Of a stretch of 64,000 bases of DNA, positions 3,005-64,000 are shown in pieces (position 1 is the first letter of the stretch; each line of letters starts with the position of its first letter). A model generated the notes under the pieces. The model did no database searches and had not been told where the DNA came from. It was given only the letters and a program-made list of their open reading frames with translations. The stretch covers positions 1 to 64,000 of the forward strand of contig CALSRZ010000001.1 of the NCBI GenBank assembly GCA_943788895.1, read 5' to 3'. This DNA is from an uncultured Pseudomonadales bacterium. Its GTDB lineage: Bacteria > Pseudomonadota > Gammaproteobacteria > Pseudomonadales > Porticoccaceae. A program made the position numbers and the translations under genes.

Positions 3005-4199
3005 ATGCTAAAAAAACAACCTTTGCAGCGGCTGATTATGCTGGGCTTTACTCTCGCTACTGCCAGCCTGCATGTGCAGAGCAGCCCTGAGTTAGTTGGC
3101 AGCCCTGAGCTTATTAACAGCCCTGAGCTTAGTAGCAGCCTTGAGCCTATTAACAGCCCTGAGCTGATCAAAGGCCCTGAGCTAGTTAACAGCCTTGAGC
3201 CTAATTAACAGCCTTGAGCGCCATTACAGCCCTGATTTCGATAGCGCCCCAAGAGATAATAAGGGGCGCTTTACCAATCAAGGGGGTGATATTTCCCATG
3301 GTTCACTGCCGGTAAGACTGGGATTTTATCTGCGTCGTTTCGGCACGCTATTTCGCAGTGATAACGGTGCTCCCAAGTCCGTTGCCAACGAAGGATCCTT
3401 CTTACGCGATAACAGCACCACACCCACCGTTACCTGGATAGGTCATGCCACCCTGTTAGTGCAGATGGAAGGGGTCAACTTCTTAACCGACCCAATCTGG
3501 TCTCAGACGCCCAGTCCGGTGCCCCCGATTGGCCCGAGTCGTTGGGTCGATCCGGGAATGGCGCTTGAGGATTTGCCGACTATCGACTTTGTGGTGATTT
3601 CCCATAATCACTTCGATCATTTAGATCTACCCACATTGCGTAAGTTGGCCGCGCGCAATTCCGACACAGTCTTTTTTGTCCCTCTAGGCAATGCTGATCT
3701 GTTGCTTAAAAATGGCATTACTCAGGTGCAGGAACTGGATTGGGGAGAGACTGTCAGCTACAAAAATACCCAGATTCACTGCCTGCCCACTCAGCACTGG
3801 AGCAAGCGCAAACTTTCAGATACCAGAAAATCCCTCTGGGCATCTTGGGCAGTAATCGGAAGCGAAAGACGTTTCTATTTTGCCGGTGATACTGGCTACT
3901 TTGCCGGGTTTAAACAGATCGGTGACAAACTTGGGCCCTTTGATCTGGCGGCAGTGCCAATTGGCGCCTACGAACCCCATGCGATGATGGCTGAAACCCA
4001 TATGAATCCCGAAGAGGCGGTGCAGGCGGCTTTAGATGTGCAGGCGGAGTCTGCAGTGGCGATTCACTTTGGCACCTTTGATCTATCGGATGAACCCCTC
4101 GCTGAGCCGCCGTTGCGTTTTAAAGCTGCGGCCAAGGAGACAATATTGGGTGCTGATAATAGCTGGGTATTGGATATTGGTGAGACCCGCCAGTTTTAA
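3005..4199 (+). CDS. secreted metallo-beta-lactamase-fold hydrolase with N-terminal repeat tract (frameshifted)
   Basis: Two overlapping frames make one gene. Frame 1 (3005-3208) encodes a signal peptide (about 27 residues) and hexapeptide repeats of the SPELIN type. Frame 2 continues the repeats (NSLERHYSPDFDS) and then holds an MBL-fold domain of the NAPE-PLD/UlaG-like group: SHNHFDHLD metal motif, THMNPEE, FAGDTGYF and HFGTFDLSDEP. The break lies in repeat unit 7 (3191-3209), which is 19 bases long instead of 18 (an extra A at about 3203-3204). Removing it gives one 397-residue exported protein. Without correction, the MBL domain could still be made from a TTG at 3195, but it would lose its signal peptide. 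The substrate is unknown; relatives hydrolyse phosphodiester or lactone bonds. Confidence 0.75.
3083..3245 (+). repeat. 18-bp coding tandem repeat, about 9 units
   Basis: Nine head-to-tail units, most starting AGCCCTGAG or AGCCTTGAG. All are 18 bases long except unit 7 (19 bases). They encode the hexapeptide S-P-E-L-x-N with variants, placed between the signal peptide and the catalytic domain of the MBL-fold protein. Units 1-6 keep the first frame; the extra base in unit 7 moves translation to the frame of the enzyme. The last units are degenerate. Copy number probably varies by slippage without changing the frame. Confidence 0.9.
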
Positions 4200-4232
4200 A
4201 GGCAGGTCTGCCCATTGAGGATATAGCTCGAG

Positions 4233-4700
4233 CTACTTAATTTTTTGCCTGTAGCGCTTTTCCATCCCATCGAGAAAGTTACGCAGCACCTGATCCAGAC
4301 ACTCGCGGTAGTTCTTATGATCTGGGCGACGAAATAGGGCGCTCAATTCATGCTTACTTAATTCCAGATCATTGAGTTTAAGTATCTCGAGAATATCGTC
4401 GGCCTGAAGGTTCAGGGCGATTTTCAGTTTGCGCAATACGCTGTTATTGCTGACACGTTTTTCTGGCTGAGGGATACCATCTTCTCTGGGGCCTCGATTC
4501 TTGATAATCAGCCCATTCAGGAAGCGCGCAAGATTGATATCTTCACAGAGCACATAGTCGGGCTCGCCTTCCCGTGCCAGCCAGGTTTTAAGCTCAGCTC
4601 TGCTGCCTTCATAGCCGCCGAGCTTAAAGATAGAGAGCATTAGCGGGTCGCTAAAATCAAACACATAGCGCACACGGCGCAAGATATCGTTATTGTCGAT
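4233..4700 (-). CDS. yehS: DUF1456 family protein YehS
   Basis: About 155 residues, matching E. coli YehS (156) along its length: NNDILRRVRY at the start, FLNGLIIKNRG in the middle, then a second copy of the domain (NNSVLRKLKIAL...) ending PDHKNYRECLDQVLRNF. The function of the family is not known. The start is odd. Homology and a perfect AGGAGG (4713-4708), 7 bases upstream, point to ATC at 4700-4698 as the first codon, exactly where YehS has its methionine. The only in-frame ATG (4742) adds 14 unrelated residues and lies inside the upstream gene. The gene starts 2 bases after the stop of the DUF6172 gene, so the pair is an operon. Confidence 0.82.
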   Translation of the reverse strand: MDNNDILRRVRYVFDFSDPLMLSIFKLGGYEGSRAELKTWLAREGEPDYVLCEDINLARFLNGLIIKNRGPREDGIPQPEKRVSNNSVLRKLKIALNLQADDILEILKLNDLELSKHELSALFRRPDHKNYRECLDQVLRNFLDGMEKRYRQKIK

Positions 4701-4702
4701 GA

Positions 4703-5170
4703 CTAGTCCTCCTGTGAGGATTTTAAGGACTGAGTGGGCCATATTGGCTTTGCTGCCTTAGGAGCTGGCGGAGGAGTCGTCTCAGCGGCTTTTCTTCTGG
4801 CTGCTGCTCTTCTGTCTTGGCGAAGGCTTTCTGTCTCTGGCGAAGGCTCTTCAACCTCTGGAGACTCTTGTGGCGTCTCGACAGCCGGAGTTCCACCACC
4901 CTCAAGGGCTTTGGCGGTGATCTCCACAAAAATAGTCATACTATTTTTTTCTACCAGCGCATCGATACTCTTTGTCAGCGATGGCAGTTGCACCTCAACG
5001 GCGGTCTCTTCAGATGCGCCAAGTTTGCAATCAAAACCCCAATATTTAGCCCCAGCGGGCAGGGTATTTTTGCGTTCCTTTTTGAGGTATTTTTTAATGT
5101 CGTGCTTTACCGAGTCTACGACGCGGGGCACTTTAATTTTAGGGTGCTCTAACTTAAAGGTCTTTTTCAT
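4703..5170 (-). CDS. DUF6172 family protein
   Basis: A 155-residue cytoplasmic protein. Residues 1-90 match the small conserved DUF6172 family (MKKTFKLEHPKIKVPR..., YWGFDCKLGA...). This copy has an extra C-terminal tail of about 60 residues rich in Pro, Glu and Ala (repeated PETES/AAARRKAAETTPPPAP-like stretches) that looks disordered. The internal ATG at 5170 is chosen because the family begins there and AGGA lies upstream; the longer frame to 5197 adds nine non-conserved residues. Its stop overlaps the ribosome-binding region of yehS downstream, suggesting translational coupling. No function is known to me. Confidence 0.8.
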   Translation of the reverse strand: MKKTFKLEHPKIKVPRVVDSVKHDIKKYLKKERKNTLPAGAKYWGFDCKLGASEETAVEVQLPSLTKSIDALVEKNSMTIFVEITAKALEGGGTPAVETPQESPEVEEPSPETESLRQDRRAAARRKAAETTPPPAPKAAKPIWPTQSLKSSQED

Positions 5171-5324
5171 TGGAATCCTGCTGGAGTGGAAAGCCACTGT
5201 CTGCGTGAGGGTTTCTGATGGCGTGCAGTGTAATGTTTATGGAGGAATTCTTCCATGCCTTAAAATTAAGCTTAGGTAAATTGGGATCAGGTGAAGGTTT
5301 TACTCTAATTGTGCAATTTCTCTT

Positions 5325-5354
5325 CCGTCATTCCCGCCTTCGCGGGAATGACGG
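5325..5354. repeat. perfect intergenic palindrome (CCGTCATTCCCGC family)
   Basis: Two 13-base perfect inverted arms, CCGTCATTCCCGC (5325-5337) and its complement (5342-5354), around a 4-base loop. It lies in the 288-base gap between the DUF6172 gene and the HEPN-like gene. The sequence resembles the dispersed CGTCATTCCCGCGAAGGCGGGAATGACG-type repeats found between genes in many proteobacteria. It marks the left border of the AT-rich islet. There is no T-run beside it, so it is a weak terminator candidate. Confidence 0.85.
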
Positions 5355-5458
5355 GACATTTAGAATGTTTATGGGAGGATTCGAAATTAGGCTTATGGTG
5401 AGGGTACAGAGAATTTAAGTCTAGAATTCGAGTCTGATCATAAATTTTCTTAATTCTA

Positions 5459-6140
5459 TTAAAGCAGATCCCCAATATTTTTGTTCAATATAGCTATTTC
5501 TTGGTGGCAGTGAGTAAGGAAGGGTACGATTTCCAATTTTTTCCCATGAAACATAATTTTATTATCAATCGTGATAATAGTTGTCCCGGAATGCTTAGTA
5601 ACACTAACCTCACCACTTCCATCAATAAATACATCGTCTTGGCGAACACCATTATAGTAATTGTTAGACATCACCACATTTCTTGCGCCCCTAATACGGG
5701 CAAATCCTTCTTGCTCTACTAGGGTGCTCTTATGGGACTCAGTTTTGGAAAGATTGTTATGTTTTGCATCATTTGTAAGAAAACACAAATCTACAACCCA
5801 ATTATTTTTAGATTTAAATGGCTGAATATTTTCTAACAATTCATATATTTCTGGCTCATCTTGCATTAAGGGGGGGCAAGTTCCTACTGATGCTATTTTT
5901 AAAATGATTCTCTTTCTGTCCATATGGAAAATATATTTTTTCAGGTAGAGTTCGGTTTTTGGGGTTAGATTTTAACTTTATTAATATATCCTTTGCCAAA
6001 TAGTCCAATACACTTCTCAAGTTTTCCAAAGTATTCTTTACCGATATTTTATTTACTTCACCTTCATTAATCGATTTTCCGATGCTCTGTATTTCGGCTT
6101 CACTATGTTCTAGAAGATGCCTTATATCATCATTTTTCAT
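5459..6140 (-). CDS. HEPN-like hypothetical protein (frameshifted in a C7 run)
   Basis: Two overlapping frames (6140-5856 and 5923-5459) join into one 226-residue protein if the run of seven C (plus-strand G7, 5870-5876) is shortened by one. The N-terminal part is helical, with ENLRSVLDYLAKDIL. It is followed by YFPYGQKENHFKNSI..LPPL, then QPFKSKNNWVVDLCFLTNDAKHNNL. A helical region ending in N-x-x-K-H is typical of HEPN-like proteins found in islands; the assignment is inference. The C-terminal 90 residues look beta-rich and unlike anything I know. AT-rich codon use differs from its neighbours, suggesting transfer. The ATG at 6140 is chosen because AAGG lies 8 bases upstream. Confidence 0.55.
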
Positions 6141-6170
6141 AGCTGACACCTTACAAATTCCAGTATGAGA

Positions 6171-6356
6171 TTAATTTTTTCTGTCATCTTTGAAAATTAT
6201 ATTTTCTTTGTTACAAGAAACTATTTTTCCGCACTTCGAACAATTGATAAAATTATTTGTAAGTATTGCGCTTTCAAATGATTTTCTATCTCCGAAGCTT
6301 ATTGGGGATTTGAATGTAGATTTGCAGTTTGGACAGATGACTAATGTTTCTGTCAT
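6171..6356 (-). CDS. small zinc-ribbon protein
   Basis: 61 residues with two Cys pairs, CPNCK near residue 8 and CSKCG near residue 39, spaced as in a zinc ribbon. The rest is Lys/Asn/Ile-rich. It lies just upstream of the HEPN-like gene on the same strand, with a gap of about 30 bases, and shares its low GC content, so the two probably moved together. Function is unknown; proteins of this type are usually nucleic-acid or protein-binding accessory factors. Confidence 0.6.
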   Translation of the reverse strand: MTETLVICPNCKSTFKSPISFGDRKSFESAILTNNFINCSKCGKIVSCNKENIIFKDDRKN

Positions 6357-6692
6357 GTATTCACCTTTTAGTTTGATTGGTCTCTTTCTATTTAGAAAAA
6401 CTTTCCGATTTTTTCTTGCATGCTATAAATATTGATCTGAAATATGACCGTAAATATTTGTAAGTATGTTTCCTTGTACGCGGCACGTTTTTAGCGTGCA
6501 CGCTCGACTTTAAAGTTGACTATAACGAGATCAAGAAATTTAAGTATTCTTAATGATCAATATCATTAAGAAATTAACTCTGGAATATTTGTCTTCCCAT
6601 CTTTCTTATCTACACCACAAATAAAATAAACGCTTGGAATAAAGAGTTAGTGATACAATTTTCAATTATCTACAGCAAAGCCCTTATAGCCA
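6357..6692. other. AT-rich intergenic region
   Basis: 336 bases between the divergent zinc-ribbon and YkgJ genes. It contains a 10-base palindrome ACTTTAAAGT near 6509-6518 and a GC-rich patch (GCGTGCACGC near 6497-6506), but I see no convincing open frame, RNA gene or strong promoter. It forms the right border of the AT-rich islet. Confidence 0.5.
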
Positions 6693-7085
6693 ATGAAAGA
6701 CTGTAACCAATGCGGAAAATGCTGCATCAAATACGGCGATGGCGCGCTCTCTGCAACAGCGCAAGAAATCGAGCTATGGGAGCTATTCCAGCCGCATATT
6801 TACAAATATGTAAAAGATAATGAAATTTGGTTTTGTCCGGATACCGGCGTACAACTTAGCCGCTGTCCTTTTCTCGAAATAGAGCCCGGTCAGGGCAAAG
6901 AAAAATATACTTGCTCTATCTACCTAAGCAGACCCGAAGACTGCAGGCACTATCCAACCAGTATTGCGGAAATGGTTCGCGATGAGTGCGAGATGATTGA
7001 GGTTAAAGATTTGGAGAATATTAAAAAAGCCCAATCTGAATTGGATAAGTTGATGGAAGATAGTCGGCCGCGAAAGCGTCCATAA
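6693..7085 (+). CDS. YkgJ family cysteine cluster protein
   Basis: 130 residues with the YkgJ-type metal-binding pattern: CNQCGKCC at residues 4-11, a CPFLE motif near residue 69, and CSIYLSRPEDCRHYP near residue 86, seven cysteines in all. The family (UPF0153/CxxCxxCC) is thought to bind zinc or an Fe-S cluster; its role is not established. It is transcribed alone and convergent with yaeQ, 11 bases away. Base composition is intermediate between the islet and the rest of the window. Confidence 0.85.
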   Translation: MKDCNQCGKCCIKYGDGALSATAQEIELWELFQPHIYKYVKDNEIWFCPDTGVQLSRCPFLEIEPGQGKEKYTCSIYLSRPEDCRHYPTSIAEMVRDECEMIEVKDLENIKKAQSELDKLMEDSRPRKRP

Positions 7086-7096
7086 AATATAATTTT

Positions 7097-7633
7097 CTAA
7101 TATAGCCGCTCTGGCGTAAAGCTTAAGTTTTTATCCCCAGAGTCCCAGCTAATTTCCTCATCCTGAATACTCACCTGCACATCGAGATTGCGCTGCATTA
7201 ATCCCGCCAGTGCCTGAGTCGTATCCGGGTCTATATGCCGGATAGTTAAATTCTTAAATCGGCTGACCTGCGACTGCATCTGTTTCCACCACATATCCGC
7301 ACCGCCGGTCCCGTAAGTATAAACAATCACCTGCTGAGATCGCCCGCAGGCCTTTTTTAAACGCTTTTCACTGGGCAATCCCAACTCTATCCATAGCTCA
7401 ATATCATCGCTAAGGCTTTTCTGCCAGAGATCCGGTTCATCATCGGTGCTTAGGCCTTTGGTAAAGCTTAGTGATTCACTGGCATGCAGGGCAAAGGCCA
7501 GTAGTCGCACCATTAGACGCTCATCGGTTTCCGAGGGATGCTGGGCCAGGGTCAGGCTGTGCTGCTGGTAATAATGGCGATCCATATCGATTACATTGAG
7601 TTCTGCTTTGCAGATAGTTGCACTTAGAGCCAT
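7097..7633 (-). CDS. yaeQ: YaeQ family protein
   Basis: 178 residues matching YaeQ over its full length (E. coli 181): MALSATICKAELNVIDMDR at the start, HPSETDERLMVRLLAFAL, then DEPDLWQKSL and a C-terminal WDSGDKNLSF. The fold resembles PD-(D/E)XK nucleases: the family keeps D and E-x-W/K positions near DDEPDLWQK and ELGLPSEKRLKKA. A role in suppressing haemolysin defects was reported for E. coli YaeQ, but the biochemistry is unclear. Confidence 0.9.
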   Translation of the reverse strand: MALSATICKAELNVIDMDRHYYQQHSLTLAQHPSETDERLMVRLLAFALHASESLSFTKGLSTDDEPDLWQKSLSDDIELWIELGLPSEKRLKKACGRSQQVIVYTYGTGGADMWWKQMQSQVSRFKNLTIRHIDPDTTQALAGLMQRNLDVQVSIQDEEISWDSGDKNLSFTPERLY

Positions 7634-7728
7634 TTGGGTTTGAGCCTTTTACGCTGGACGAATTGGGGTGAATGATTTTTATGCTGGCAATAGTACAGGA
7701 GTTAATGGCTATTTAGCGGCAGGGATTA

Positions 7729-7917
7729 TTAAAAGCCGAGATCTTCTTGGGTGACTTCGACACTGACTTCATCACCATAGACTTCGGTTTGAATCAGTAT
7801 GGGTCGACAGCAGACGAAGCAGTCTTCGGTATAGGTTTGCGACTCGGAGGGGTCGACCAAGATGGTGATGCTCTCCCAGCAAAATGGGCAGGTGATCTGT
7901 TTTTCGTGAAGATGCAT
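7729..7917 (-). CDS. CPXCG motif-containing cysteine-rich protein
   Basis: 62 residues with a conserved small-protein pattern: [17 protein letters not shown], then [14 protein letters not shown] and an acidic C-terminus. Here the first Cys pair is CPFC and the second CFVC. It probably binds zinc. It lies 10 bases downstream of the acyl-CoA hydrolase gene on the same strand, likely cotranscribed. Function unknown. Confidence 0.82.
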
Positions 7918-7927
7918 ATTCGACTAC

Positions 7928-9022
7928 TTATTTTAGACTGCTCAGAGGGTGCTGGTTTTCGGGCCAGGGGCTTATAAAGAAGGGGTCGACCATCTCTGGG
8001 GTAATATCTTCAATACGCGCTGGGTTCCACTTCGGATTCTGGTCTTTATCCACTGCCAGAGCGCGGATACCTTCGACGGTTTCGCTGCTGCTGCCACTGC
8101 GCCCCAGATGTTGGGTTTTAAAGCAGTGTTGCACCAGAATTCGTTCCAGACGCAGATCATCGGCAATACACAGGCTTCGACCTCGACGAATATGTTCGAG
8201 TGAGACATGCAGCATTAGCGGTGAGCGCTGACGAATGATTTTTAGGGTCTCTCTTGCCCAGTGATTATTGGCATTTTCCAGGGCCTGAATAATCTCCATC
8301 AGGGTTGGCAGGCTAAAAATAGCGTCGATCTGCCTATCCAGCCACTGGGGTTCTTGCGCTGTTTTGGTCAGTTGCTTTTGCAGCTGTTCTAAACGCTCTG
8401 TGGGGCTGAGTTGAAGGTTTTCGGTGAGGCTATTCCACAGCTCGGGCAGGGTTTCACTCGGCGCTATTGCATCGGCAAGCCCCAGAGTCAGTGCATCGCC
8501 GCCAATTAGCATCTGTCCGGTTAATGCCAGATATTCGCCACTGGCACCGGGGCAGCGGCTAAGAAAATAACCACCACCAGCATCGGTAAATAGACCGATC
8601 TTGGTTTCCGGCATAGCCATTCTGGTGCGCTCGCTGACAATGCGCAGATCTGCACCCTGTGAGAGGCCCATACCACCGCCCATAACAACACCGTCCATAA
8701 AGGCGATAACCGGTTTGGGGTAGCTGTAGACAAGGTGATTAAGGCTGTATTCGACGTTAAAAAAATCTTCCACAGCTGGATCATTGTTGATCGCTGCATG
8801 GTGTAAAGCGCGGATATCACCACCGGCGCAGAAGGCGCCAAAGTTACCCTGTTTGCTGTTACCGCGAATGGCGACGATGTCCACTTCGGGGTTTTCAATC
8901 CAGCCACTGAGTACGCTGCTGAGATGGTTAACCATCTGCAGGGTCAGCGCATTTAGTGCTTCGGGACGGTTTAGGGTAATCATTCCGACGCCGGCGACGA
9001 TGTCGGTTTGAATATGGCTCAC
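7928..9022 (-). CDS. 3-hydroxyisobutyryl-CoA hydrolase-like enoyl-CoA hydratase family protein
   Basis: 364 residues of the crotonase superfamily, in the long-form subgroup of 3-hydroxyisobutyryl-CoA hydrolases (valine breakdown). Visible are GMITLNRPEALNAL at the N-terminus, the oxyanion-hole segment FCAGGDIRALH, and GGGMGLSQGADLRIV with the following PETKIGLFTDAGGGYFL that is typical of the hydrolase group. The C-terminal RMMF-like region ends with FFISPWPE. GTG at 9022 is chosen as start (GGAG 9 bases upstream; family proteins begin there). It could instead be a general enoyl-CoA hydratase. Confidence 0.82.
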   Translation of the reverse strand: MSHIQTDIVAGVGMITLNRPEALNALTLQMVNHLSSVLSGWIENPEVDIVAIRGNSKQGNFGAFCAGGDIRALHHAAINNDPAVEDFFNVEYSLNHLVYSYPKPVIAFMDGVVMGGGMGLSQGADLRIVSERTRMAMPETKIGLFTDAGGGYFLSRCPGASGEYLALTGQMLIGGDALTLGLADAIAPSETLPELWNSLTENLQLSPTERLEQLQKQLTKTAQEPQWLDRQIDAIFSLPTLMEIIQALENANNHWARETLKIIRQRSPLMLHVSLEHIRRGRSLCIADDLRLERILVQHCFKTQHLGRSGSSSETVEGIRALAVDKDQNPKWNPARIEDITPEMVDPFFISPWPENQHPLSSLK

Positions 9023-9059
9023 TAGTTTTACTCCGCAGCGCATTCGCGACCGGTTATGT

Positions 9060-9653
9060 TTACGACAGACTAGCGAAATCCTTTATCAGTGTCGACTTCA
9101 CTGGATCGTCAATGGTGATTATATTGGGCTGCAGCAGGTCGTTGTCGATACCCAGTTTTAATAAGCCGCCATCTCTGAGCGCCTGAATGGCTTCGTCGGA
9201 AAATTCAAAGCGCATAAAGTGTACGCTTGAGGTTTTCTCTGCGGTTTCGCGCTCGAGATCTTCGTCGCAGATCGGCACAATTTTTGGCAGGTCGTTGACT
9301 TGCACCCACACCTGTCGTTCTACGCCGATAAGCTTTTGCAGCATTATCTTGCGCTCGTCGATATCGCTGTATTCGAGCATAAAGGTGGCTTTAAGATTTT
9401 TACCATCGGGTATCAGCGGGTTGTAGGCGTCGAGTTCTTCCTGAATTTCCGCACTTTCAAAAATCTTTTCAACGCGGAGGATTTCCTGAATCTGATAGCG
9501 AATAGTGGTCAGGTCTTCAAAGCAAAAGCGCGCGCTGTCGGCAATGGTGACTTGGCGATTTTTTTTGTAGGCCATTACCTGTTTGCGGAATTGAGGGCGC
9601 TCTATTGAATACTGTTCGAGTGACCATAGGTCGTTGCGGGTTAAATAAGTCAT
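9060..9653 (-). CDS. DUF3501 family protein
   Basis: 197 residues, full-length match to the DUF3501 family (LTRNDLWSLEQYSIERPQFR..., DLTTIRYQIQEILRVEKIF...). It is the last gene of a three-gene run with the Fe-S protein (9 bases upstream) and rubrerythrin. This association recurs in many proteobacteria and suggests a part in peroxide or oxidative-stress defence, but no biochemical activity is known. No signal peptide or membrane segment. Confidence 0.88.
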   Translation of the reverse strand: MTYLTRNDLWSLEQYSIERPQFRKQVMAYKKNRQVTIADSARFCFEDLTTIRYQIQEILRVEKIFESAEIQEELDAYNPLIPDGKNLKATFMLEYSDIDERKIMLQKLIGVERQVWVQVNDLPKIVPICDEDLERETAEKTSSVHFMRFEFSDEAIQALRDGGLLKLGIDNDLLQPNIITIDDPVKSTLIKDFASLS

Positions 9654-9662
9654 ATTATTTGC

Positions 9663-11000: not shown

Positions 11001-11039
11001 GCGGTCTCTCCTGCACTACTTTTTCGAATAGTTAAACAG

Positions 11040-11059
11040 CTGGGGCGCTTGCGCCCCAG
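11040..11059 (-). terminator. GC-rich hairpin between rubrerythrin and Fe-S genes
   Basis: Perfect 9-base stem CTGGGGCGC / GCGCCCCAG with a 2-base loop, 20 bases below the rubrerythrin stop. There is no U-run after it in the direction of transcription. It is therefore more likely a processing or partial attenuation structure that sets rubrerythrin above the two downstream genes than a full terminator. Confidence 0.55.
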
Positions 11060-11078
11060 TGTTTGGTGGGTTGCTGTA

Positions 11079-12194: not shown

Positions 12195-12216
12195 TAGCTA
12201 GCTAATTAGTGACTGA

Positions 12217-15618: not shown

Positions 15619-16960
15619 TTAAATTGGCCAGTCTACCGTATCTCTGGAATCGAGCTGTTCAAGATGCTGATCGCCGCCCCAGCGTTTTATAAATAATCTA
15701 TCGGGATCGTAGATTTGTGTCTGTTTCTCCAGATCAAAACGTCGGTGACCTCGAGGGTCTGCACCAACCCCGGCAAGGTATTGCCAGTTGCCCCAGTTGG
15801 AGGCGACATCATAGTCGATAAGCTGTTGCTCCATATAGGCGGCACCGTAGCGCCAGTCGAGGTTTAACTCGTGAACAAAGCAGCTGGCGACCAGCTGTCT
15901 GCCACGATTGGACATGTAGCCGGTGGCATTTAGCTGTTTCATGCAGGCATTGACTATGGGGTAGGGGGTATTGCCCTGACACCATTTCTGGAAGCGTTCC
16001 GGATAAAAGCTGGTTGTCGGATTGGTGTTTTTAATGCCATTAAATTTGAACAATTTTCCTCTGTAGCTCTGGGCATACCATTGAAAATACTCTCGCCATA
16101 AAAGCTCAAAGTAGATCCAGTAGGTAGACTCATTGGATTCAATCTTTGATTCGTACTGATGCAGGTCATCAATAATTTGTCGGGCAGAAATGCTGCCATT
16201 GCTCAGCCAGGGTGAAAATTTGGTTGAGTAATCCATTCCATCGAGCCCGTTGCGAGTTTCTTTATAGGTGCTGGCATTCTTAGTTTGAAAGTAGCTGCGT
16301 AGATGTTGCTTGCCGGCCCGAGAGCCTCCCTTAAATAGCTGACCTTCGCCGAGTTGAGAGTGGAGAGACTGCGCGTTCCAGACGGCCTGCCAATTCTGTT
16401 TGCTGGTTAAGCAGCTGTTTGGTAGCTGGGGTGGTTTCCCCAGCGGTGCTCTTATAGAAATATCTGAAACCATTCGTCGGAATTTGGAAAAGCTGTCCGG
16501 CAGTTTATCGAGAGTAAATGGCAGCTGTGATTTATCAAATAAGGTGTGAGTGTCGATCTGATTAAACTGGATCATGCTGTAGCGTTTGCTCAGGGTGTCC
16601 CAGATTTTTCGCTTGTATTCGCTAGCACTATTACTGCGGTAAATATGCGAAATATTATATTGGGTAATCAATTCGGGAATTAGGCTCCGCAGGGGATTTA
16701 AATTCGACTAACAGCTGTTGTCCCTGCTCGGCCAGTGACTTTTCTAAATCGACCAAGCTATCAAATAAAAACTGCTGGCGGTTTGGTGATAGCTTGCTGG
16801 GTGCCTGTTGATCGGAAAAGGTAGATTTTGGGCGAACGCAGTAGAGGCAAATAAGTGTGTCGACTTCACTTGCCGCTTTGTGAAGGGCTGGGTTGTCATC
16901 AATGCGCAAGTCATTGGTAAACCAAAATAGTCCGGTTTTTTTAACTTGATCCAATGCCAT
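15619..16960 (-). CDS. DASH-type cryptochrome/photolyase (frameshifted)
   Basis: Two overlapping frames, 16960-16655 and 16671-15619, encode the halves of one 446-residue DASH cryptochrome: GLFWFTNDLRIDDNPAL at the N-terminus (antenna domain), then GGSRAGKQHLRSYF, WIYFELLWREYFQWYA and MSNRGRQLVASCFVHEL with WRYGAAYMEQQLIDYD for FAD binding. A single extra base around 16681-16690 breaks the frame; removing it reads A-E-L-I-P-E-L-I-T-Q smoothly across. DASH proteins bind FAD and a folate and repair cyclobutane dimers in single-stranded DNA or act as blue-light sensors. ATG 16960 is chosen for AGGGAG upstream. Confidence 0.85.
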
Positions 16961-17026
16961 AGTTAGCTGCTCCCTAATATTATTTTGCCCTGTATACACA
17001 ATATATTTACGCTGTAGCTGCTATTT

Positions 17027-20091: not shown

Positions 20092-20629
20092 TTAAAACCA
20101 CATACGTTTAAGAATACTGTCGCGCAATTTAAAGTGGTGGTATAGCGCCGCACCTATATGCACAAGCAGAATAATAATCAGCATTATTACACAGACTTCA
20201 TGGACTTCTGCGGCCAGATTTTTAAGCGCTTCGTCGGGACCGGTAATGGCCGGCAACTCAATCAGCCAGAAAAGCTTGGTGGGAATATTGGCCGCGGAGG
20301 TGGTTATCCAGCCACTAATTGGCAGGGCAAGCATTAGTCCGTAGAGCAGGGCATGGGCCAGTTGTGCCAGTCGCCGCTGGATTGGGTTGTTGTCGAGGGG
20401 CTTGGGGATTGTGCCGGTTATACGCCAGAGTAGCCGTTCAATGGCGAGTAGTAGAATTAGCATGCCAATGGATTTATGCCAGACAAATAGATCCAGTTTT
20501 AACGGGAGATAGCTTGAGTTCTTCGGCGTAAAAGCCCAGTGGGATCTGAATTAAAATCAATACGGCAGTTAGCCAGTGCAGCAGCTTGCTCAGCCATCCC
20601 CAGTGATTTTCTGTATTGCGCATTGTCAT
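20092..20629 (-). CDS. cytochrome b561 (frameshifted)
   Basis: A 178-residue di-haem b561 once one base is removed from the A4 run at 20497-20500. The N-terminal frame (ATG 20629, AGGAG upstream) reads MTMRNTENHWGWLSKLLHWLT, continuing to LSPVK. The C-terminal frame resumes with LDLFVWHKSIG and holds the rest (AHALLYGLMLALPISGWI, VHEVCVIMLIIILLVHIGAAL). Four helices; haem ligand candidates are His in LLHWL, WHKS, AHALL and VHIGAALYHH. It oxidises quinol in the inner membrane and is commonly found with YceI proteins. Confidence 0.85.
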
Positions 20630-20763
20630 TAAAAGCTCCTTCTTTTAAGCAGTTTTCAAGTTGCCTATCATGCCTGAGCGAGGGGCTGTAAAACAATCAA
20701 AAGCGATGCCGCTGATCTGCTAATATACGCGCCCTAAAATTGCCGATAAAAAAAGAGACTTCT

Positions 20764-22087
20764 ATGTCCGATAACAGCCGATTAATTTGCGAGATTGTCG
20801 ACCTTATTCACGATGGTCGAGGGGTTGGCCGTCCGGATGGAAAAACCTGTTTTATCGAGGGTGCGCTACCCGGGGAGACTGTGGAGTTTCGCCGTCACAA
20901 TCAAAAGCGCAACTATGATGAAGCCCATGTGCTGGAGGTTATCTCTGCCTCTGAAAGCCGTATCCAGCCGCAGTGTAAGCACTTCCCGCGCTGCGGTGGC
21001 TGCACGGTGCAGCATCTCGAGCACGGCGCTCAGGTTAGCTTTAAAGAGAAGCAGCTTTTAGACAGTTTAGAGCGCAGCGGTATGCAGCCGAAAACTCTAC
21101 TGCCTGCGTTAAGCGGCCCGCAGTGGGCCTATCGCCGTCGCGCGCGATTGGCGGTGCAGCGCGCTAAAGATGGCAATGTACTGGTGGGTTTTCACAATCC
21201 CGGCAGTCGTCGAATTGAGCCTATAACTGAATGTCATGTGTTGGCTAGAACCTCTCGCGGCTATTGTGGTGGCACTGCCTGAATGGCTGACTGCGTTCCC
21301 GCCGGGTATTCGTCTTTTTGAGGTTGAGCTGTTGAGTGCTGACAATGGCTTGGCGATTGCCGTCGAAGCTAGCAGGGCACCGTCGGCGACTGAGCTTGAG
21401 CAGATGTTGGCGAGCATGAAAATGTTCACGACGAGTTCTGCCCAGCTGTGGTGGAAGACCAGCAGTCAGTCAAAATTTGTTCGTCTCGATACCGGTGGCG
21501 AGTCCCTTGAGTTGGCTCTGACTGATGATGTTCGACTGCAAGTTCAGCCGGGACAGTTTGTTCAGGTGAATGGCGAGATTAATCGCCAGATGATTGATCA
21601 GGTTTTATCTCTGGTACGTAAAACTGGAACGGATAAAACTGCCTCTAGTAAAAAAGGTTTGGCAGTGGATCTGTTTTGCGGCAGTGGAAATTTCTCCCTA
21701 CCACTGGCAGCCCATTTTGATCGAGTAATTGGTATTGAGGGTCTTGAGGGTCTGGTACGCAGTGCTGAGGCCAATGCTCAGCGCAATAATCTGACCAATA
21801 TCGAGTTTATGGTTTCCGATCTCAATGATTGGTCGGGTATGCGCAAGCTCAAAGAAAAGATCGATCTGGTATTGCTCGATCCGCCGAGAAATGGTGCGGC
21901 TGGCGCTATGCCTTGGATTGCAAAGGCTAAGCCCAAGCAGATTATTTATATCTCCTGTCACCCCTCGACCATGGTCAGGGATGCCAAATTATTGACTGAG
22001 GCGGGCTACAGTTTAAGTGCTGCGGGGGTTATGGATATGTTTCCTCACACGGCTCATGTAGAGGCGATTGCGCTGTTCGAAAAATAG
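20764..22087 (+). CDS. rlmD: 23S rRNA (uracil-C5)-methyltransferase RlmD (frameshifted)
   Basis: 440 residues if one extra base near 21240-21246 is removed, close to the 433 of E. coli RlmD. The first frame holds a TRAM domain and the Fe-S cysteines (CKHFPRCGGCTVQHL). The second frame resumes at LEPLAAIVVAL and contains the SAM site (VDLFCGSGNFSLPLA) and the catalytic region LLDPPRNGA...IYISCHPSTMVRD. The enzyme makes m5U1939 in 23S rRNA. ATG 20764 (MSDNSRL...) is preferred over the longer frame. It is transcribed towards glyA. Confidence 0.88.
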
Positions 22088-29733: not shown

Positions 29734-29847
29734 ACCCTTTACTGGTCGACTGTTGAAGCTACAATACGCGACCGAATAAAACTTTCGCCTGTTGCATTAA
29801 GATAGTGCGATCAATTAATTCGATTAATAAATACTTTGGAGAAAACT

Positions 29848-30452
29848 GTGGCGCTTCGCTTTATCGAATCATCAAAATTACCCACTCGCTGGGGCACTTT
29901 TGATATTCACGGTTTTGAAGATCCATTTAAAGGTAAGGAGCATATCGCCATTACTATGGGTGACTGTGCTACTGAAGAGCAAGAGCCGCTGTTGATAAGA
30001 ATTCACTCTGAGTGCCTGACCGGCGATGCACTGGGCAGTATGCGCTGCGACTGTGGAGAACAGTTGCAGGAAGCTATGAAGCGTATTTCTGAGCAGGGCC
30101 GCGGGGCTATTTTATATCTCCGTCAGGAGGGGCGTGGCATAGGTCTGGTCAATAAGATTCGCGCCTACAATCTGCAGGATCAGGGTGCCGACACTGTTGA
30201 AGCCAATGAGCGCCTAGGGTTTGGCGCTGATATGCGCGATTACTCTATCTGTGTGCCTATGCTTGAGCATCTGGGTGCCAAGCAGGTTGTGCTTGATGAC
30301 CAATAACCCGCGCAAGATCGCTGCCCTGAAAGAGCTGGGTATCAGATGTGGTCGACCGTGAGCCGATTCAGGCGGATAGCAATCCCCATAATGTTCAATA
30401 TCTATCGACTAAAGCTGGCAAGCTTGGTCATCTGTTTAAGGAAGAGAAATGA
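29848..30452 (+). CDS. ribA: GTP cyclohydrolase II (two frameshifts)
   Basis: 200 residues after removing two inserted bases; E. coli RibA has 196. From GTG 29848 (GGAG before it) the frame is intact through the zinc motif [20 protein letters not shown] and [21 protein letters not shown]. It then breaks near 30295 (LMTNNPRK expected) and again at 30343-30346 ([12 protein letters not shown] expected), and ends LFKEEK. It opens the riboflavin pathway from GTP. Its stop overlaps the hisF ATG (ATGA), so the genes are coupled. Confidence 0.9.
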
Positions 30453-31220
30453 GTCTGGCTAAACGTATTATTCCCTGTCTCGATGTCGATAAAGGCCGTG
30501 TGGTTAAGGGCGTACAGTTTGTCGATATTCGCGATGCTGGCGATCCAGTTGAAGTTGCCCGCCGCTATAACGAGCAGGGTGCTGATGAGATTACCTTTCT
30601 GGATATTACTGCCAGCCATGAGGCGCGGGATACTACTTTGCACACGGTTGAGCGTATGGCGGGCGAAGTGTTTATTCCCTTGACTGTAGGCGGCGGTGTT
30701 CGTGAGTTACAGGATATTCGCAATCTGCTTAATGCCGGTGCCGACAAAGTAGCGATCAATTCAGCGGCGATTCACAATCCGGAATTTGTTCGTGAAGCGG
30801 CGCAGCGTTTTGGCTCGCAGTGCATTGTTGTGGCTATTGATGCCAAGCAGGTAGAGCAGGGTGATGCAGCCACGCTGGGAGATATTTACCCACGGTGGCC
30901 GCAAGCCAACCGGTATCGATGCGATTCAGTGGGCGGAGAAGATGACCGGCTACGGTGCTGGTGAAATTCTGCTGACCAGTATGGATCGCGATGGCACTAA
31001 AAATGGTTTTGATCTCGATCTTACCTCGCGCATCAGTGATGCGGTAACTGTGCCGGTAATCGCTTCTGGTGGTGTGGGTAATCTGCAGCATCTGGTTGAT
31101 GGGATTGTTGAAGGTAAGGCCGATGCGGTTTTGGCGGCGAGTATTTTTCACTTTGGTGAGCATACGGTGCCTGAGGCTAAGAAGTATATGGCTGAGCGTG
31201 GCGTAACTGTCCGTCTCTAG
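30449..31220 (+). CDS. hisF: imidazole glycerol phosphate synthase subunit HisF (frameshifted)
   Basis: 256 residues if one C is removed at 30870-30871 (E. coli 258). The first frame covers the N-terminal half-barrel ([17 protein letters not shown], catalytic Asp, [11 protein letters not shown]). The second frame gives [33 protein letters not shown] and VIASGGVGN. With HisH it makes the imidazole ring of histidine and AICAR. It is here next to ribA rather than other his genes. Confidence 0.9.
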
Positions 31221-31245: not shown

Positions 31246-32489
31246 TTATAGTTGCGTAAATTTTAATCCCGCATGATCCTCAAGACGTTTAACCAGAGCA
31301 GTACCCATAGCTGTTGAAGGGGTTAGGAAACCGCCGGCCTGATCTTCCTTTTTAATATCCATCGCCAGACAGAGACCCGCCTGTGCAAGCATCTTGGCGG
31401 TTGAGCCATAACCTGGATCGCGGTCACCAGTCACTTTTACCATCAGGTGATTGCCCTCGTTATCGCCACCATACAGGCGCAGATCAAAGAATCCCTTTAG
31501 CTGTGCCTCTGGGCTGGGGCCTTCGCCCGGTGCTGGAAGCACAAACTTTTCCAACAGTGCGCGCAGCGGGCTAAAAAACAAGCCCAAACCTAGTGCGCCA
31601 AAACCAAGAGTCGACATAACAGCGCCATACGACCTTTAATGCCCGGCCCAGTCAGCACGCCTTCGCTGTAGGTAAAGTCCTTGCCATAGGCCATGTCCAT
31701 CAGCGCATTGGAGCGCAGAACTATTCGCGAGTTGATCGCTTCCATAATAAAAGGCGCAATCCAGGAATTAAATTCCTTATCAAACATTGGTCCTTTAACA
31801 CTGTGGGCTTTCTGCTGATACTGATGATCTTTACCACAGAGTAGATAGGGATTGCCCATCTGGCGGCGAACTTTAGGATCGGCTTTGGCGGCTTTAATCG
31901 CTTCGATCATACTGGCTACAGTGCCGCCGGAAGCGCCACCTTTAATCGCTTTAACCCGCAGTTTGGTGTGGGGCATTGGGTGATTAAACTGTTCGTTGGC
32001 CTGTTGCTGAAGCGTGAACATACCCATATCTGATGGGATAGAGTCAAAACCACAGCTATTAACAATACGCGCGCCGCTGTCTTGTGCGGCCTGCTGATAC
32101 TTGTCCTGCATCTGCTTAATCCACTGGGCTTCACCGGTCAGGTCGGTGTAGTCAGTGCCAGTTTCGGCGCAGGTTTTAACCAGTAATTCGCCGTAGAGTG
32201 CGTAGGGTCCAACTGTGGAAATAATCACTCTGGCCTGACTGCACATGGCTTGCAGTGACGCTTCATCGTGGGAGTCGGCAATAATCATTGGCAGTTGACT
32301 GGCGCTATCACCGTAGGAGTCGCGCAGTTCGGTTAACTTGGCTGTTGAGCGTGCGGCGATGGCCCAGGAAATATCACTATTAGTGCCTAAGTGTTCAATC
32401 AGATAGGTGGTTAAAATTTGACCAACAAAACTGGTGGCGCCAAAAACGACCAGATCATACTGCTTATTAGATGCTTCATTAATTGACAT
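31246..32489 (-). CDS. saccharopine dehydrogenase-like trans-acting enoyl reductase (frameshifted)
   Basis: 414 residues if one missing base is restored near 31618-31626. The N-terminal frame has a Rossmann motif, VVFGATSFVGQILTTYL, followed by GEAQWIKQM and NSCGFDSIPSDMG. The C-terminal frame starts around MSTLGFGALG and has KFVLPAPGEGPSPEAQ and the GDRDPGYGSTAKML segment conserved in the family. Relatives include mycobacterial trans-acting enoyl reductases and mammalian saccharopine dehydrogenase-like oxidoreductase; the substrate is probably a lipid. This is one of only two deletions among the 13 indels found. Confidence 0.82.
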
Positions 32490-33231: not shown

Positions 33232-36020
33232 CTATTTATCCCAATCTATAATAACCTTCACCTCGGCGTCACCCGGCGCTTGGGCGGCCGGTTGGCCGAG
33301 CTTAAAGCGCAATCCCAGCTCGGGAATATTGGCACCGCCAAAGGGAAGCTGGGGATTTAGATAGCGGTTGGGGTGAGCATCTGAGAACTCACTGACTGGC
33401 GCATAGGCCGTGCTCTGTTCGCGAACCAAACTGCTATTCTGGATGCCGTAGATAGAGGTGCCATCGGAAAATGGCTCTAGCGCAAAGGGTGCATCGCCGG
33501 AATGTCGGTTGCGCAGTACGCGATCATAGAGACGATATTCGGTGATGCCATTGCGGATTCGCAGATCAAATAGCGTCGAGACACCTTTGTATTTAAGCCT
33601 ACCGGCACCGGGCAGCAGGTCGTTAATCAATGTATAGCCATACATCAGCTGGCGACCATTCCAGTTTAATGACTCAACCGGCGGCAGGCCGTTGACCAGA
33701 GATTGACTGCAGCGCTGGCGATCTTCCACGCTGACATCACTGGCATAAAATGCAGCGCGGCGCTGGTGGCACATAACGTCGACAAATCCACTGTGCAGCC
33801 AGGGCTGAGCTTCTTGATCAAATTTGTAGAAGGTCCAGCCATCTTTATTCTGCAGATACTTGTCAGGTACGCCGGGTAGATTAAATTCCTGGGGATTGGC
33901 ATCAACTAAAAGAAGAAAGCCATTGCCCGGGCCAAATTGCGCTGGCTCGTTTTGGCTCCAGAGATATTCACCGTTGTAGTACCAGGCTAAAACGCCGGGG
34001 CGGTAGTTGGCAGTAAAGGCTTTCATCTCGCCGGACTGGTCTTTATAGAATGAGAACCCCGGCTTGGTCAAACTGGCATCGTAGTTTTTAACGCTTTTAA
34101 ATTCGGCGTAGGGATCGCGATATTCGAGCAGATAATAATGCGGTACGGCAATACGGTGCTGGCCACCGCTGATGGTGAATCCCTGACTGCTCCAGCCCTG
34201 AATGCTACCGCTTTCAAAATCTTCCAAGTAATTGATCGCTGGCAAGGCGATATTATCGATTAGTGCAGCATCTTCGACGGCGGCGCCATCGGCGAAGTAA
34301 TGGAAGCGAATAGAAACCTGTTTGCCGCGATAGGCTTCAAGATTAAATTTACCCTCAATCCACTGGGCCGTTTCGCAGGCATCCACTGCGCTGCTACCGA
34401 CGCGATCTTCAGCCATAGTTTTATCTATTTCGGGGTCGCAGCCGCTGGATATCTCGACTTTGCCATCGCCGTCCATATCACCGGATCGCCCACTAAATCC
34501 TGGAAGTGAGCCTTCACCTTCATGACCTTTTTTCGAGGGCATGCTGCTCATAGTATCCGCCGCACTGTCTTTGTCAGTGGGCAGCAGGCGCTGGTATTCG
34601 CCGCCATCGTTGCGGCTTCTATATAGAGGTAATCCCAATCCGATTCTATTTTGAACCAGGTATCAAAGGAGAGTATCAGCGGCTGCTCTGGCGCTACTTT
34701 AGTCAGGTCAAAGCTGCGGGTCAGAAAGTGATTGAGGTCATTGCCCTGTCCGGTATAGGCGGCGTATTCGCCCTGCGCCTCACCCAGAGGGCCGAGATTT
34801 AGCTCGCGTATTTTCGGTGGCAGAATCACCATTGTTGAATCGCAAACACCGGGACTGTTGATATCGCCGGCTTTATTCGACCAGCTATTCATGGTTTTCA
34901 GGTACATGGAGTGGCGCTTGTCGCCGCCAAAGCTCGGTGGTCTGACAATGCAGGGTTTCATCCAACCCAAGACCATTCGCGACCAACTGCTCATCTCTTG
35001 AGGTTGCGGCGATGCGGTTGAGGACATAACTTCCCAGGAGGCGGTGGAGTTATTGGTGGCGCGGGCATAGAGATCCGGCAGTCCCAGCGAGTGGCCAAAT
35101 TCGTGAATAAAGGTTGCTATCTCGGTATATTCAGACTGCATATTGTAGTCGTAGAGCCACAGGTCTTTTTCAATCTCCAGACCGCCGCGTCCGTTCACTA
35201 CACCCTCGAGGGTTGGACCCTTGCCGAGATCGCGGTTAATCGAGCTGCGATGAGGCCAGATACGGTCAGCACAGTCGCGCTCTGCTTGCGGCAGGCTGTC
35301 GAAAATTGAGCTGTCGGCATTGCTGGTGAATTTTTCCCCGAGTTTGTAGAGCCCCTGACAGGAGGATTGCCCCTTGCCGGCATAGACAATCACTAGGTGA
35401 TCGAGATAGCCATCGGCTTCAGAGCGATTGCCATCGCCATCAAAATCCTGTGGATCCCAAATATCGTAATCTTTCCATGGGAAGTCGGGATTGTTTTTAT
35501 AGGCTGCGCGCAGGGCATCGGCAACCAGTTCATCGGTGTGGTCATCGTTGCGCCAGCTGCCATCGGCATTTTGTATGGGTCGCCCGTAGTGAGCCAGAGG
35601 TTTGTCGACTTTGGCGATCGGCATAATCTGCCCGGTAATATTGTAGAGCCCCTTGGACTGATGGCGATAGTAGTGGGAGAGAGTGCCGGATTTGGGACGT
35701 TTAATACTGCCAGCAAATAACAGCTTCTGAAAATAGTCGCGGTTTTTGCGGTTCTGTCTTTTATGCCCAGCGAAGCGCTCGTAGCCAATTTCCGGAAACT
35801 CCACCGCAATAACCAGCAGGCGGTGAGGCCGATCTGCGGGCGCGAGAACCGGTTTTATCGAATCGGTTTTAATCTGTGGGCTGCCGAGTTTGTCGAACTG
35901 CAGGTTGGCGAGGTTGTCGATCATACGCTCTGCTTCAAGATCAATAGCGCTGATAGAGGTTGCATTAAAAATGCTCGCTAAAAAGAAAATTTTTACGCAA
36001 ATAGAGCGTTTAAAAATCAT
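33232..36020 (-). CDS. M6 family secreted metalloprotease (frameshifted)
   Basis: 929 residues after restoring one base near 34611-34620. ATG 36020 has AGGAG 6 bases before. A signal peptide covers about residues 1-25. The peptidase domain of the immune-inhibitor-A/M6 type has the zinc site FIHEFGHSLGLPDLY, preceded by DGDGNRSEADGYLDHLVIVYAG. The C-terminal 450 residues are beta-sandwich-like (FESGSIQGWSSQGF..., DMDGDGKVEI...) and may aid binding. Predicted to be secreted for degrading extracellular protein. The ABC exporter next door is divergent, so a link is not implied. Confidence 0.85.
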
Positions 36021-36132
36021 TTGTTTCTCCTGAGAAGGCTCGGATATTGTTATTATGCTCAGCTGAAGCATTGGCGGCGATCACACGCTATATCGCCCTA
36101 CATAAAGTTTATTATAGTACTCATTATCAGGG

Positions 36133-54187: not shown

Positions 54188-54246
54188 TGTTGTTGGCCAG
54201 CTGGTAGCCGGTTTTACTCTATCTGCTGGCGATCGGGAGAGGATTT

Positions 54247-55093
54247 ATCAGAAACGTTTTTAGCAAGGCATCCTCTCCGGCGAGAAAATTCCTTATCGTC
54301 GTATTTGTCGCGCTGCTATTTATGATGGTGGATGTTTTTACGCCCTGGTTAAAGCCTGTCTACAGCACTGTCGACAATCTGGTTCGCCCTCTCTACTGGT
54401 TTTCAAATATCCCCCAGCGTGTTCAGGAATGGGGTTCGAGTAATGTCACTTCCCGCTCTGAGCTCGAGAGCGAAAATCTTCGCCTGAGTAAAGAGAGCCT
54501 GATCTATCACGGCCAATTGCAGCGCATGTCTGATCTGGCCGCTGAAAACCTGCGTCTTCGCCGCCTGCTCAATGCCACTGAACTGTTGATGAGACAGTGT
54601 TTTGGTCACTGAGGTCATTGGGGTTTCGGCAAATCCACAGCGCCATACATTGAGTATTGATCGCGGCACGGATGATGGTGTATTTGTCGGTCAGCCGCTG
54701 CTCGATGCAGAGGGGCTGATGGGGCAGATTATTACTGTTCACAAAAATCATAGCTCTGCCTTATTGATCACTGATAGCAGTCACGCACTGCCGGTGCAGG
54801 TATTGCGCAACGGGGTGCGTTCAATTGCTGAAGGCACCTCTGACTACAATCTGCTCAACCTCAAGTTTGTCTCGCCCACTGCAGATATTAAAGAGGGTGA
54901 CAAGCTGATTAGTTCAGGTCTGGGTGGTCTCTATCCGGTGGGCTATCCGGTGGGTACAGTGATTAGTATTGAGCAGGAGCCCGGCGACAGTTTTCTTAAA
55001 ATCAGTGTCGATCCCTCGGCAGAAATAGATCGCAGCCGTCATTTACTGTTGCTCTATAACTCACGCGATGGCGATTTGGATAAGACGCAATAA
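54247..55093 (+). CDS. mreC: rod shape-determining protein MreC (frameshifted)
   Basis: About 281 residues if one extra base near 54588-54593 is removed. The first frame gives a membrane helix (FLIVVFVALLFMMVDVF) and the coiled coil (SRSELESENLRLSKE, AAENLRLRRLLNATELL). The second frame gives the beta domains (VLVTEVIGVSANPQRHTLSIDRG, DFLK-type end). No ATG, GTG or TTG fits the expected start; ATC 54247, 7 bases after GGGAG, gives IRNVFSKASSP, a plausible N-terminus. MreC is a periplasmic scaffold between MreB and wall synthases. It overlaps mreD by one base. Confidence 0.85.
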
Positions 55094-55569: not shown

Positions 55570-55578
55570 GGATCAACT

Positions 55579-56178: not shown

Positions 56179-56199
56179 AAAATAGATTTTGGAAATAGG

Positions 56200-57663: not shown

Positions 57664-57671
57664 GCGAATAT

Positions 57672-61724: not shown

Positions 61725-62553
61725 CCGTTTGATTGCCGCAGCAGTTCAGCTGCGTCCCGGTGACTCAATCGAGCACAGCCTCAATAATGCCTCCGCAATG
61801 ATTCAGCGCGCCGTCGATTTGGGTGCAGAATTAGTTGTACTCCCTGAAAACTTCGCGCATCTGGGCTGCGATGATTTCAGCGCTATTGGCCAAGCGGAAT
61901 CAACGCCGCGGGGTTTGGTGCGACAGTTTCTGTCAGATCAGGCGCGCCAACAGGGCATCTGGCTGGTGGCGGGAACATTGCCGATCAGCGACCCCGAACA
62001 GTCAAAACCCTATGCCCGCTCTCTGTTATTTGATCCACAGGGCAATCAGCGCAGCGCTTATGACAAGATTCATCTATTTGATGTGACGCTGGATAAGTCT
62101 GATCTCAGCGATGGTCAGCAGAGCAGCTATCGCGAATCGGATAGTTTTAGCGGTGGTTCTGAGGTTGTGGTGGCACAGACAGATCGTTGCGCTCTGGGTA
62201 TGACTGTCTGTTATGACCTGCGCTTTGCCGAGCTCTACCGTCAGCTGGCGGATTTAGGTGCACAGGTAGTGACTGTACCGGCGGCCTTTACCGCAGCCAC
62301 CGGCAGGGATCACTGGCTGCTATTGCTGCGCGCTCGGGCAGTGGAAAATCAGCTGTTTGTGATTGGTGCTAATATGGTTGACCGCGAACATCCGCGCCGC
62401 GCACTCTGGGGTGGCAGTGCCATTATCGATCCCTGGGGTAATCTGTTGGCAAGTCTCGATGACGAGCCTGGGGTGGCAGTCGCCGAGATTGATTTAACGA
62501 TGATTGATAAAGTTAGAGCCAAGATGCCGGTGAGTTTACACCGCAAGTTGTAA
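61699..62553 (+). CDS. carbon-nitrogen hydrolase (nitrilase superfamily)
   Basis: 284 residues from ATG 61699, overlapping yhdP by 26 bases. Catalytic triad Glu in VVLPENFAHLG, Lys in SAYDKIHLFDV, Cys in GMTVCYDLRFAELYRQL. Nit1/Nit2-like; probably deaminates deaminated glutathione or omega-amides. Usual neighbour of yhdP and tldD in related genomes; tldD is missing here since the next genes are on the other strand. Confidence 0.92.
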   Translation: MTQRKNSSNRLIAAAVQLRPGDSIEHSLNNASAMIQRAVDLGAELVVLPENFAHLGCDDFSAIGQAESTPRGLVRQFLSDQARQQGIWLVAGTLPISDPEQSKPYARSLLFDPQGNQRSAYDKIHLFDVTLDKSDLSDGQQSSYRESDSFSGGSEVVVAQTDRCALGMTVCYDLRFAELYRQLADLGAQVVTVPAAFTAATGRDHWLLLLRARAVENQLFVIGANMVDREHPRRALWGGSAIIDPWGNLLASLDDEPGVAVAEIDLTMIDKVRAKMPVSLHRKL

Positions 62554-62605
62554 TTTGTTTTTTCTCGGCGAGGTCTAATTAAACAGCTCTACTCAGACAG
62601 CTCTC

Positions 62606-63092
62606 TTAAATAAGCAAAAATCTTACGCGCGGCAGTGGGGCTTTTTTCTCTGCCAGTTCGCGGCTTGCTTGACGCTGAAGATTGCGCAGCTGTTGGCGAT
62701 CAGCCTGGGGATACTTTTCAATCAGCGCTTCGATAGCCGTTGGCCCTTCATTGATAATACGATCGCGCCAGTTTTCCAGTTGCTGAAAGTGCTGTCTATA
62801 GGTCTGTGACTGATGATCCATCATATCCAGAGTTCTCTTGAATAAAGCTGATATCGGCGGTGCGCATCAGCTTGCCGATATACTGCAGTTGGCGACGCTT
62901 GCCCTCGCGGTTTTTTAACCGTCGAGCTTCATAGATAGCGTCTTTCAAGTTTTCCGGTAATTCGAATTTGTTCAGCTGACCCTCGGGCATCTCTACCAGT
63001 TGGCTGCCCATATCCTGCAGTGCTTGGCTCTCGCGTTTGAGCTGGGATTTGCTGATCAGCTCTTCATCTTCAAATTCATTATTGTCAGTCAT
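62606..63092 (-). CDS. yjgA: ribosome-associated protein YjgA/DarP (frameshifted)
   Basis: About 161 residues if one A is removed from the run at 62833-62834. The first frame ([20 protein letters not shown]..., [31 protein letters not shown]) and the second ([24 protein letters not shown]..., [14 protein letters not shown]) both match YjgA. It helps late 50S ribosome assembly. Its ATG overlaps the mgtE stop by one base; the mgtE frameshift makes the two look like a single fused frame. Confidence 0.85.
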
Positions 63093-64000
63093 TAGGTATA
63101 GAACACCGTAGCCAGTCCAAGAAAGGAAACAAAACCGACAATATCGGTTACTGTTGTGAGGATAACCGTACCAGCCAGTGCCGGGTCGATCTTTAATGCG
63201 TCGCAGTATAACTGGCAGCAAGGTGCCGGAAATAGCCGCGGCCATCAGGTTGATACACATAGCCAGGCCGATAATCAGGGCGATGGTCCAGTCGCCAAAC
63301 CAGAGTGATACCAGAGCACCCATTACCAGTGCCCAGAGGATGCCGTTGAGGGCGCCGACAACAAACTCTTTACTCAGCAACCATTTGATATTGTCGCGCT
63401 CGATCTGGCCGAGGGCCATACCGCGAACTACAACGGTCAGGGTCTGGCTGCCGGCAACACCGCCCATGCTGGCGACAATCGGCATAAGGATCGCCAGCGC
63501 AACCACCTTATCCAGGGTTGCTTCAAACATACTGATCGCTGTGGAGGCGAGAATTGCGCTGAGCAGATTGAGCCCAAGCCACAGTGCACGACGAGGTGCA
63601 GTTCGGCCAATTGAAGAGAAGGTGTCTTCGGTATCACTCAAGCCGGCCAGTGCCAAAAGGGAGTGATCGGCATCTTCAACAATAACGTCAACCACATCAT
63701 CAATGGTGATTCGACCAACCAGACGGTGCTGGCTGTCGACCACTGGTGCAGATACCAGATCCTGACGCTGGAATAGCTGGGCAACATCGGAGTCTATAAG
63801 ATCGACGGGTATAGCTTCAATCTCGGTATTCATCACTTCTCTAACCGTGGTGCTGGGGCTGGAGGTAAGCATTTTGCTCAGCGACAGATTGCCCAAAAAA
63901 GTATCGGTACGGCTGACCACAAACAGGGTATCGGTGATATCCGGCAGCTCTTCAAAACGTCGCAGGTAACGCAGCACTACATCGATAGTAATATCTGGAC
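63092..64000 (-). CDS. mgtE: magnesium transporter MgtE, C-terminal part (frameshifted, runs off the window)
   Basis: The visible part covers the CBS domains ([21 protein letters not shown]..., [13 protein letters not shown]) and the membrane domain with about five helices ([34 protein letters not shown]). The C-terminus needs removal of one A at 63192-63194 to read [19 protein letters not shown]... and end at 63092; otherwise the frame runs into yjgA. MgtE is a gated Mg2+ channel. The N-terminal domain lies beyond the window. Confidence 0.9.

Follow-up and report, generated by a model that had tools for sequence, protein, structure and literature searches.

The window analysed here, a stretch of 64,000 bases, comprises bases 1-64000 of contig 1 (463,910 bases), i.e. 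the start of that contig, in a draft genome (G000) of 1,954,472 bases in six contigs that is 93.1% complete. Among the named records in the best 80 of 568 confirmed relatives, the RNase G sequences closest to that of G000 belong to Porticoccaceae/Pseudomonadales MAGs and to marine gammaproteobacterium HTCC2207, and on sequence comparison G000 is related to Porticoccaceae/SAR92, as a putative SAR92-like marine gammaproteobacterium. The nearest relative genome compared, G017, is a single contig whose RNase G is 91% identical to that of G000 and which is collinear with contig 1 across 415 kb, with block identities of 68-99%. The comparison is a mosaic, in which blocks of approximately 95-99% identity (1-5272, 85902-116138, 227412-232445, 245577-252744 and 425169-431619) are separated by sequence of approximately 80-88% identity, a pattern that suggests recombination between near species. 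A near search of window bases 1-8000 against plasmids gave no match.

The first-pass annotation had reported that 13 single-base indels break 12 genes of the window. These genes were examined both by nucleotide alignment to G017, scoring a net one-base shift within a long G017 ORF, and by tblastn using intact G017 proteins as queries and the window as target (together "both tests" below). The genes are:

3005..4199, plus strand: MBL-fold hydrolase gene; extra base near 3200; Pfam Lactamase_B_2 on the downstream piece; both tests.
5459..6149, minus strand: gene reported as HEPN-like; two overlapping ORFs, 5459-5923 and 5856-6149; candidate break at 5870-5876.
15619..16999, minus strand: photolyase/cryptochrome gene; extra base near 16681; DNA_photolyase and FAD_binding_7 on two pieces; both tests.
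20092..20644, minus strand: cytochrome b561 gene; extra base near 20503; Pfam match on the G017 copy; both tests.
20740..22087, plus strand: rlmD; extra base near 21246; G017 copy above the TIGR00479 cut-off; both tests.
29836..30449, plus strand: ribA; extra bases near 30293 and 30343; family assigned on the G017 copy; both tests.
30440..31220, plus strand: hisF; extra base near 30866; family assigned on the G017 copy; both tests.
31246..32489, minus strand: saccharopine-dehydrogenase-like gene; missing base near 31627; Pfam Sacchrp_dh_NADP; both tests.
33232..36071, minus strand: M6-type peptidase gene; missing base near 34604; Peptidase_M6 and InhA-like domains (pieces scanned separately); both tests.
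54223..55093, plus strand: mreC; extra base near 54592; single MreC match genome-wide; both tests.
62592..63095, minus strand: yjgA/darP; extra base near 62839 and missing base near 62640; DarP family on the G017 copy.
63095..64000, minus strand: mgtE, truncated by the window edge; extra base near 63198; both tests.

Twelve of the 13 reported breaks, in 11 of the 12 genes, were recovered by G017 alignment and tblastn within about 11 bases of the places originally given: the G017 proteins are intact and the window copies change frame. For 10 of these 11 genes the G017 protein matches the window in differing frames that join at the break. The exception is yjgA, for which the entire G017 protein yields only one match, of 57.6%; queried as two halves, it matches at 94% and 91% in different frames. 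Its final 19 residues match in the first frame again, and a second break (the missing base near 62640, approximately 16 residues from the end) is present that the earlier list did not include. One-frame copies of 8 of the 11 genes exist in a third genome besides G017 (80 kb of G022 and loci L012-L017), G017 being the sole witness for the genes broken at 3200, 31627 and 34604. The gene at 31246..32489, earlier labelled enoyl-reductase-like, is saccharopine-dehydrogenase-like by its Pfam match. Ten of the 12 recovered breaks are extra bases (two-sided binomial p 0.039), so that the insertion bias put forward earlier as 11 of 13 keeps its direction with a revised count. The accompanying warning that annotation would mislead was apt: owing to two breaks, a single false ORF (62796-63977) fuses mgtE with part of yjgA and matches both MgtE and DarP.

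The remaining, HEPN-like region lies in an island (5273-6645) that has no counterpart in the G017 alignment. Neither of its two ORFs has a Pfam match, leaving the name HEPN without support. The piece 5459-5920 matched only itself across 50 genus genomes; it has a weak match in one other of 274 class genomes, and a match of 30.7% in one of 72,556 plasmid records.

Across the whole of contig 1, comparison with G017 (ORFs of at least 100 aa) gave 122 isolated single-base frame breaks, of which 80 were assigned to G000, 30 to G017 and 12 were ambiguous; after reciprocal filtering (413.6 kb aligned) these numbers were 80, 28 and 12, corresponding to 0.193 breaks per kb in G000 and 0.068 in G017. 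This strict set omits two of the 12 window breaks, that near 16681, where the aligner made two gaps, and that near 63198, where an out-of-register ORF spans the site. As a control, identical code was applied to 42 named isolate loci of approximately 12-21 kb (203 pairs, 2,875 kb aligned, 78-98% identity), giving 0.045 breaks per kb per genome, a value in which recurrent sites are counted repeatedly and events are thus not independent. In 73.5 kb of aligned sequence sampled from contig 2, G000 carried 20 breaks and G017 carried 3. When seven SAR92-like comparison sets were paired with each other, with the window and with G017, the window had 8 pairs with an aligned length of 3 kb or more and was the more often broken partner in 7 of them; the counts were 2 in the window vs 1 in L013, and 4 vs 1 in G022. 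L013, L014 and L015 are themselves broken in some pairs, at most two or three times.

These controls bear on the possibility that divergent gene ends or unrelated overlapping ORFs were counted as breaks. That some such events may occur is suggested by the isolate control, with its non-zero rate and many recurrent sites, and by the 12 of 122 contig 1 events that were ambiguous; because the same pipeline gives 0.045 per kb on isolates, a minority of the breaks may reflect true indels or the alignment itself. As the main cause, however, this account is refuted, and we regard it as having a negligible chance of being correct, since contig 1 has roughly fourfold the break density of the control and tblastn shows a frame change in 11 window genes; pipeline effects may contribute a minority share.

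The breaks on contig 1 are also clustered, with variance-to-mean ratios of 2.49, 2.83 and 3.38 in 2-, 5- and 10-kb bins (78 bins at 5 kb), values reached by none of 2000 random placements at any bin size; in places five to six breaks fall within one gene. Uneven coverage, with some stretches thinly covered, would be expected to produce such clustering.

The direction of the breaks on contig 1 is strongly biased, with 59 extra bases vs 21 missing bases (p 2.5e-5), whereas the isolate control shows no insertion bias (121 extra vs 136 missing); in the contig 2 sample the bias is weaker (12 extra vs 8 missing). Most of the extra bases (40 of 59) are single, 16 make up a pair and 3 fall in a run of at least 3, resembling simulated random insertions, for which 357 of 600 were recovered by the pipeline and 61.6% of those recovered stood alone. 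This is therefore not homopolymer slippage, and indel errors of the homopolymer type, a typical residue of CCS or nanopore data, are rejected on these counts. As the extra bases lie mostly outside homopolymers, the sequencing platform cannot be assigned.

Sequence motifs at the extra bases were considered as candidates and rejected, the strongest being AGC (14 vs 5.2 expected, p 4.9e-4, 32 3-mers tested), CAAG (11 vs 3.2, p 2.7e-4, 136 4-mers tested) and CTTGA (6 vs 0.9, p 2.9e-4, 512 5-mers tested), all borderline or non-significant after correction. With respect to codon phase, 30 of the 59 extra bases lie at a codon boundary vs 105 of the 357 simulated insertions (p 0.001), a post hoc and unexplained observation. 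The 9 insertions in the most similar blocks show no such boundary excess (phases 4, 3 and 2), and control pairs are likewise uneven (28, 68 and 25), so that the pipeline does not yield reliable phase counts. In the most similar blocks extra-base gaps are commoner in non-coding than in coding DNA (1.72 vs 0.43 per kb), indicating that real indels are also present; because these dominate non-coding DNA, comparison of coding with non-coding sequence cannot isolate the error part. Extra bases outnumber missing ones by 13 in 48.8 kb of coding DNA and by 2 in 4.65 kb of non-coding DNA, differences too small to be informative.

An insertion bias of this kind, together with the codon-boundary excess, might alternatively be read as programmed or tolerated +1 frameshifting, in which genuine extra bases are skipped by the ribosome. 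The sites, however, share no codon; an immediate zero-frame stop occurs in 3 of 59, close to the approximately 2.8 expected by hand estimate; the breaks are seen in G000 alone, its relatives reading through; and control phases are uneven as well. In addition, 21 of the 80 breaks are missing bases, and five to six breaks can cluster in one gene. We therefore consider +1 frameshifting extremely improbable, and accord equally little credence to its wider form, in which the cell would tolerate hundreds of +1 insertions, including those in essential genes, through a frame-restoring step in translation or transcription.

The identities of the broken genes were examined by an NCBIfam scan of the G017 copies of 20 of the 53 broken ORFs, one of which had no match. 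The genes identified include infB (IF-2), GyrA, polynucleotide phosphorylase (pnp), release factor 3 (prfC), FabB, PriA and ferrochelatase (hemH), in addition to RibA, HisF, MreC and RlmD. G000 contains a single gene above the IF-2 family cut-off, in two frames joining near C1:98975, and a single gene above the GyrA cut-off, in two frames joining near C1:423037. Loss of IF-2 or of gyrase is lethal. A second, GyrA-like gene (G000:C5:392380-394531), probably parC, is likewise in two frames, locus L169 covering its first part. Substitution rates vs G017 at codon positions 1, 2 and 3 are 0.071, 0.036 and 0.233 in broken genes and 0.071, 0.041 and 0.267 in intact genes; the broken genes have thus been under the usual constraint, although very recent loss would look alike. 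Inherited mutations would be expected to become more numerous as divergence increases. No growth is seen over 84-99% identity, density being 0.224 per kb at identities of at least 94% (12 in 53.6 kb) and 0.248 at 84-94% (51 in 205.8 kb), and below 84% it is lower (0.117, or 17 in 145.4 kb, at 80-84%; 0 in 10.4 kb below 80%), perhaps due to lower detection.

These data weigh on the proposal that the breaks are real pseudogenes in a lineage losing genes by true inactivating mutations. The genome is small, at 1.95 Mb, and it is normal for a genome to carry a few breaks, as the isolate control illustrates. Nevertheless, no second copy of infB or of gyrA exceeds the family cut-off, the codon-position constraint of the broken genes equals that of intact genes, density does not rise with divergence, and the direction of the breaks is insertion-biased, unlike the control. 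Genuine gene loss is accordingly very unlikely, if less remote than the alternatives above, and the first-pass reading of a draft-quality signature is supported by the splitting of essential single-copy genes, unrelaxed constraint, clustering, an insertion bias missing in control loci and a density that is level at 84-99% identity.

The signature is present on both contigs compared (1 and 2). Given the breaks observed, how densely and in which direction they occur, how they cluster, and that they hit single-copy essential genes under normal constraint, we assign a probability of about 0.96 to their being single-base consensus errors in the draft genome, which was probably built from long reads and thinly covered in places. 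Where coverage was weak, read errors, extra bases more often than missing ones, would have gone uncorrected into the consensus and shifted the reading frame, such that intact genes appear split or falsely fused with a neighbour; the living cell would lack these breaks, although a few single ones may be real. Points that count against consensus error are that rpoB reads through in a single frame, that 23S rRNA matches end to end and that density is lower below 84% identity, as well as the real non-coding indels, the codon-boundary excess and a mostly non-homopolymer context that is unlike PacBio CCS errors.

Insertions dominate PacBio raw errors. False pseudogenes from assembly error are already documented (PMC11017572, PMC12007338, PMC8103633). 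Cooley and Wright 2024 (PMC11017572) report that assembly-introduced frameshifts make intact genes look like pseudogenes, naming assembler, platform and coverage as causes; G000 shows the same kind of false pseudogene, but that study drew on 126,564 public genomes together with read-based reassembly, whereas the present case is a single draft assembly. In the work on Kastor (PMC12007338), PacBio CCS errors are mostly homopolymer indels. As here, single-base indels fragment genes and are detected against references, and its insertions are described as tied to no particular homopolymer; its deletions, however, come after long homopolymers and the majority of its errors are linked to homopolymers, whereas the extra bases in G000 lie mostly outside homopolymers. 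Errors of PacBio RS are described as unbiased by homopolymers (PMC4719071). Indel frameshifts in long-read MAGs (PMC8103633) offer a further likeness, although the data there are Nanopore and for G000 we only infer the read type.

The broken genes are thus almost certainly sequencing or assembly mistakes, a quality warning and no new biology. By hand extrapolation from the measured rate and the recovery of 357 of 600 simulated insertions, approximately 600 breaks would be present across the 1.95 Mb. Any annotation of this draft would contain spurious pseudogenes and short proteins, as well as at least one spurious fusion ORF, that of mgtE with yjgA, and studies of gene loss, completeness or selection that use this genome should allow for false breaks.
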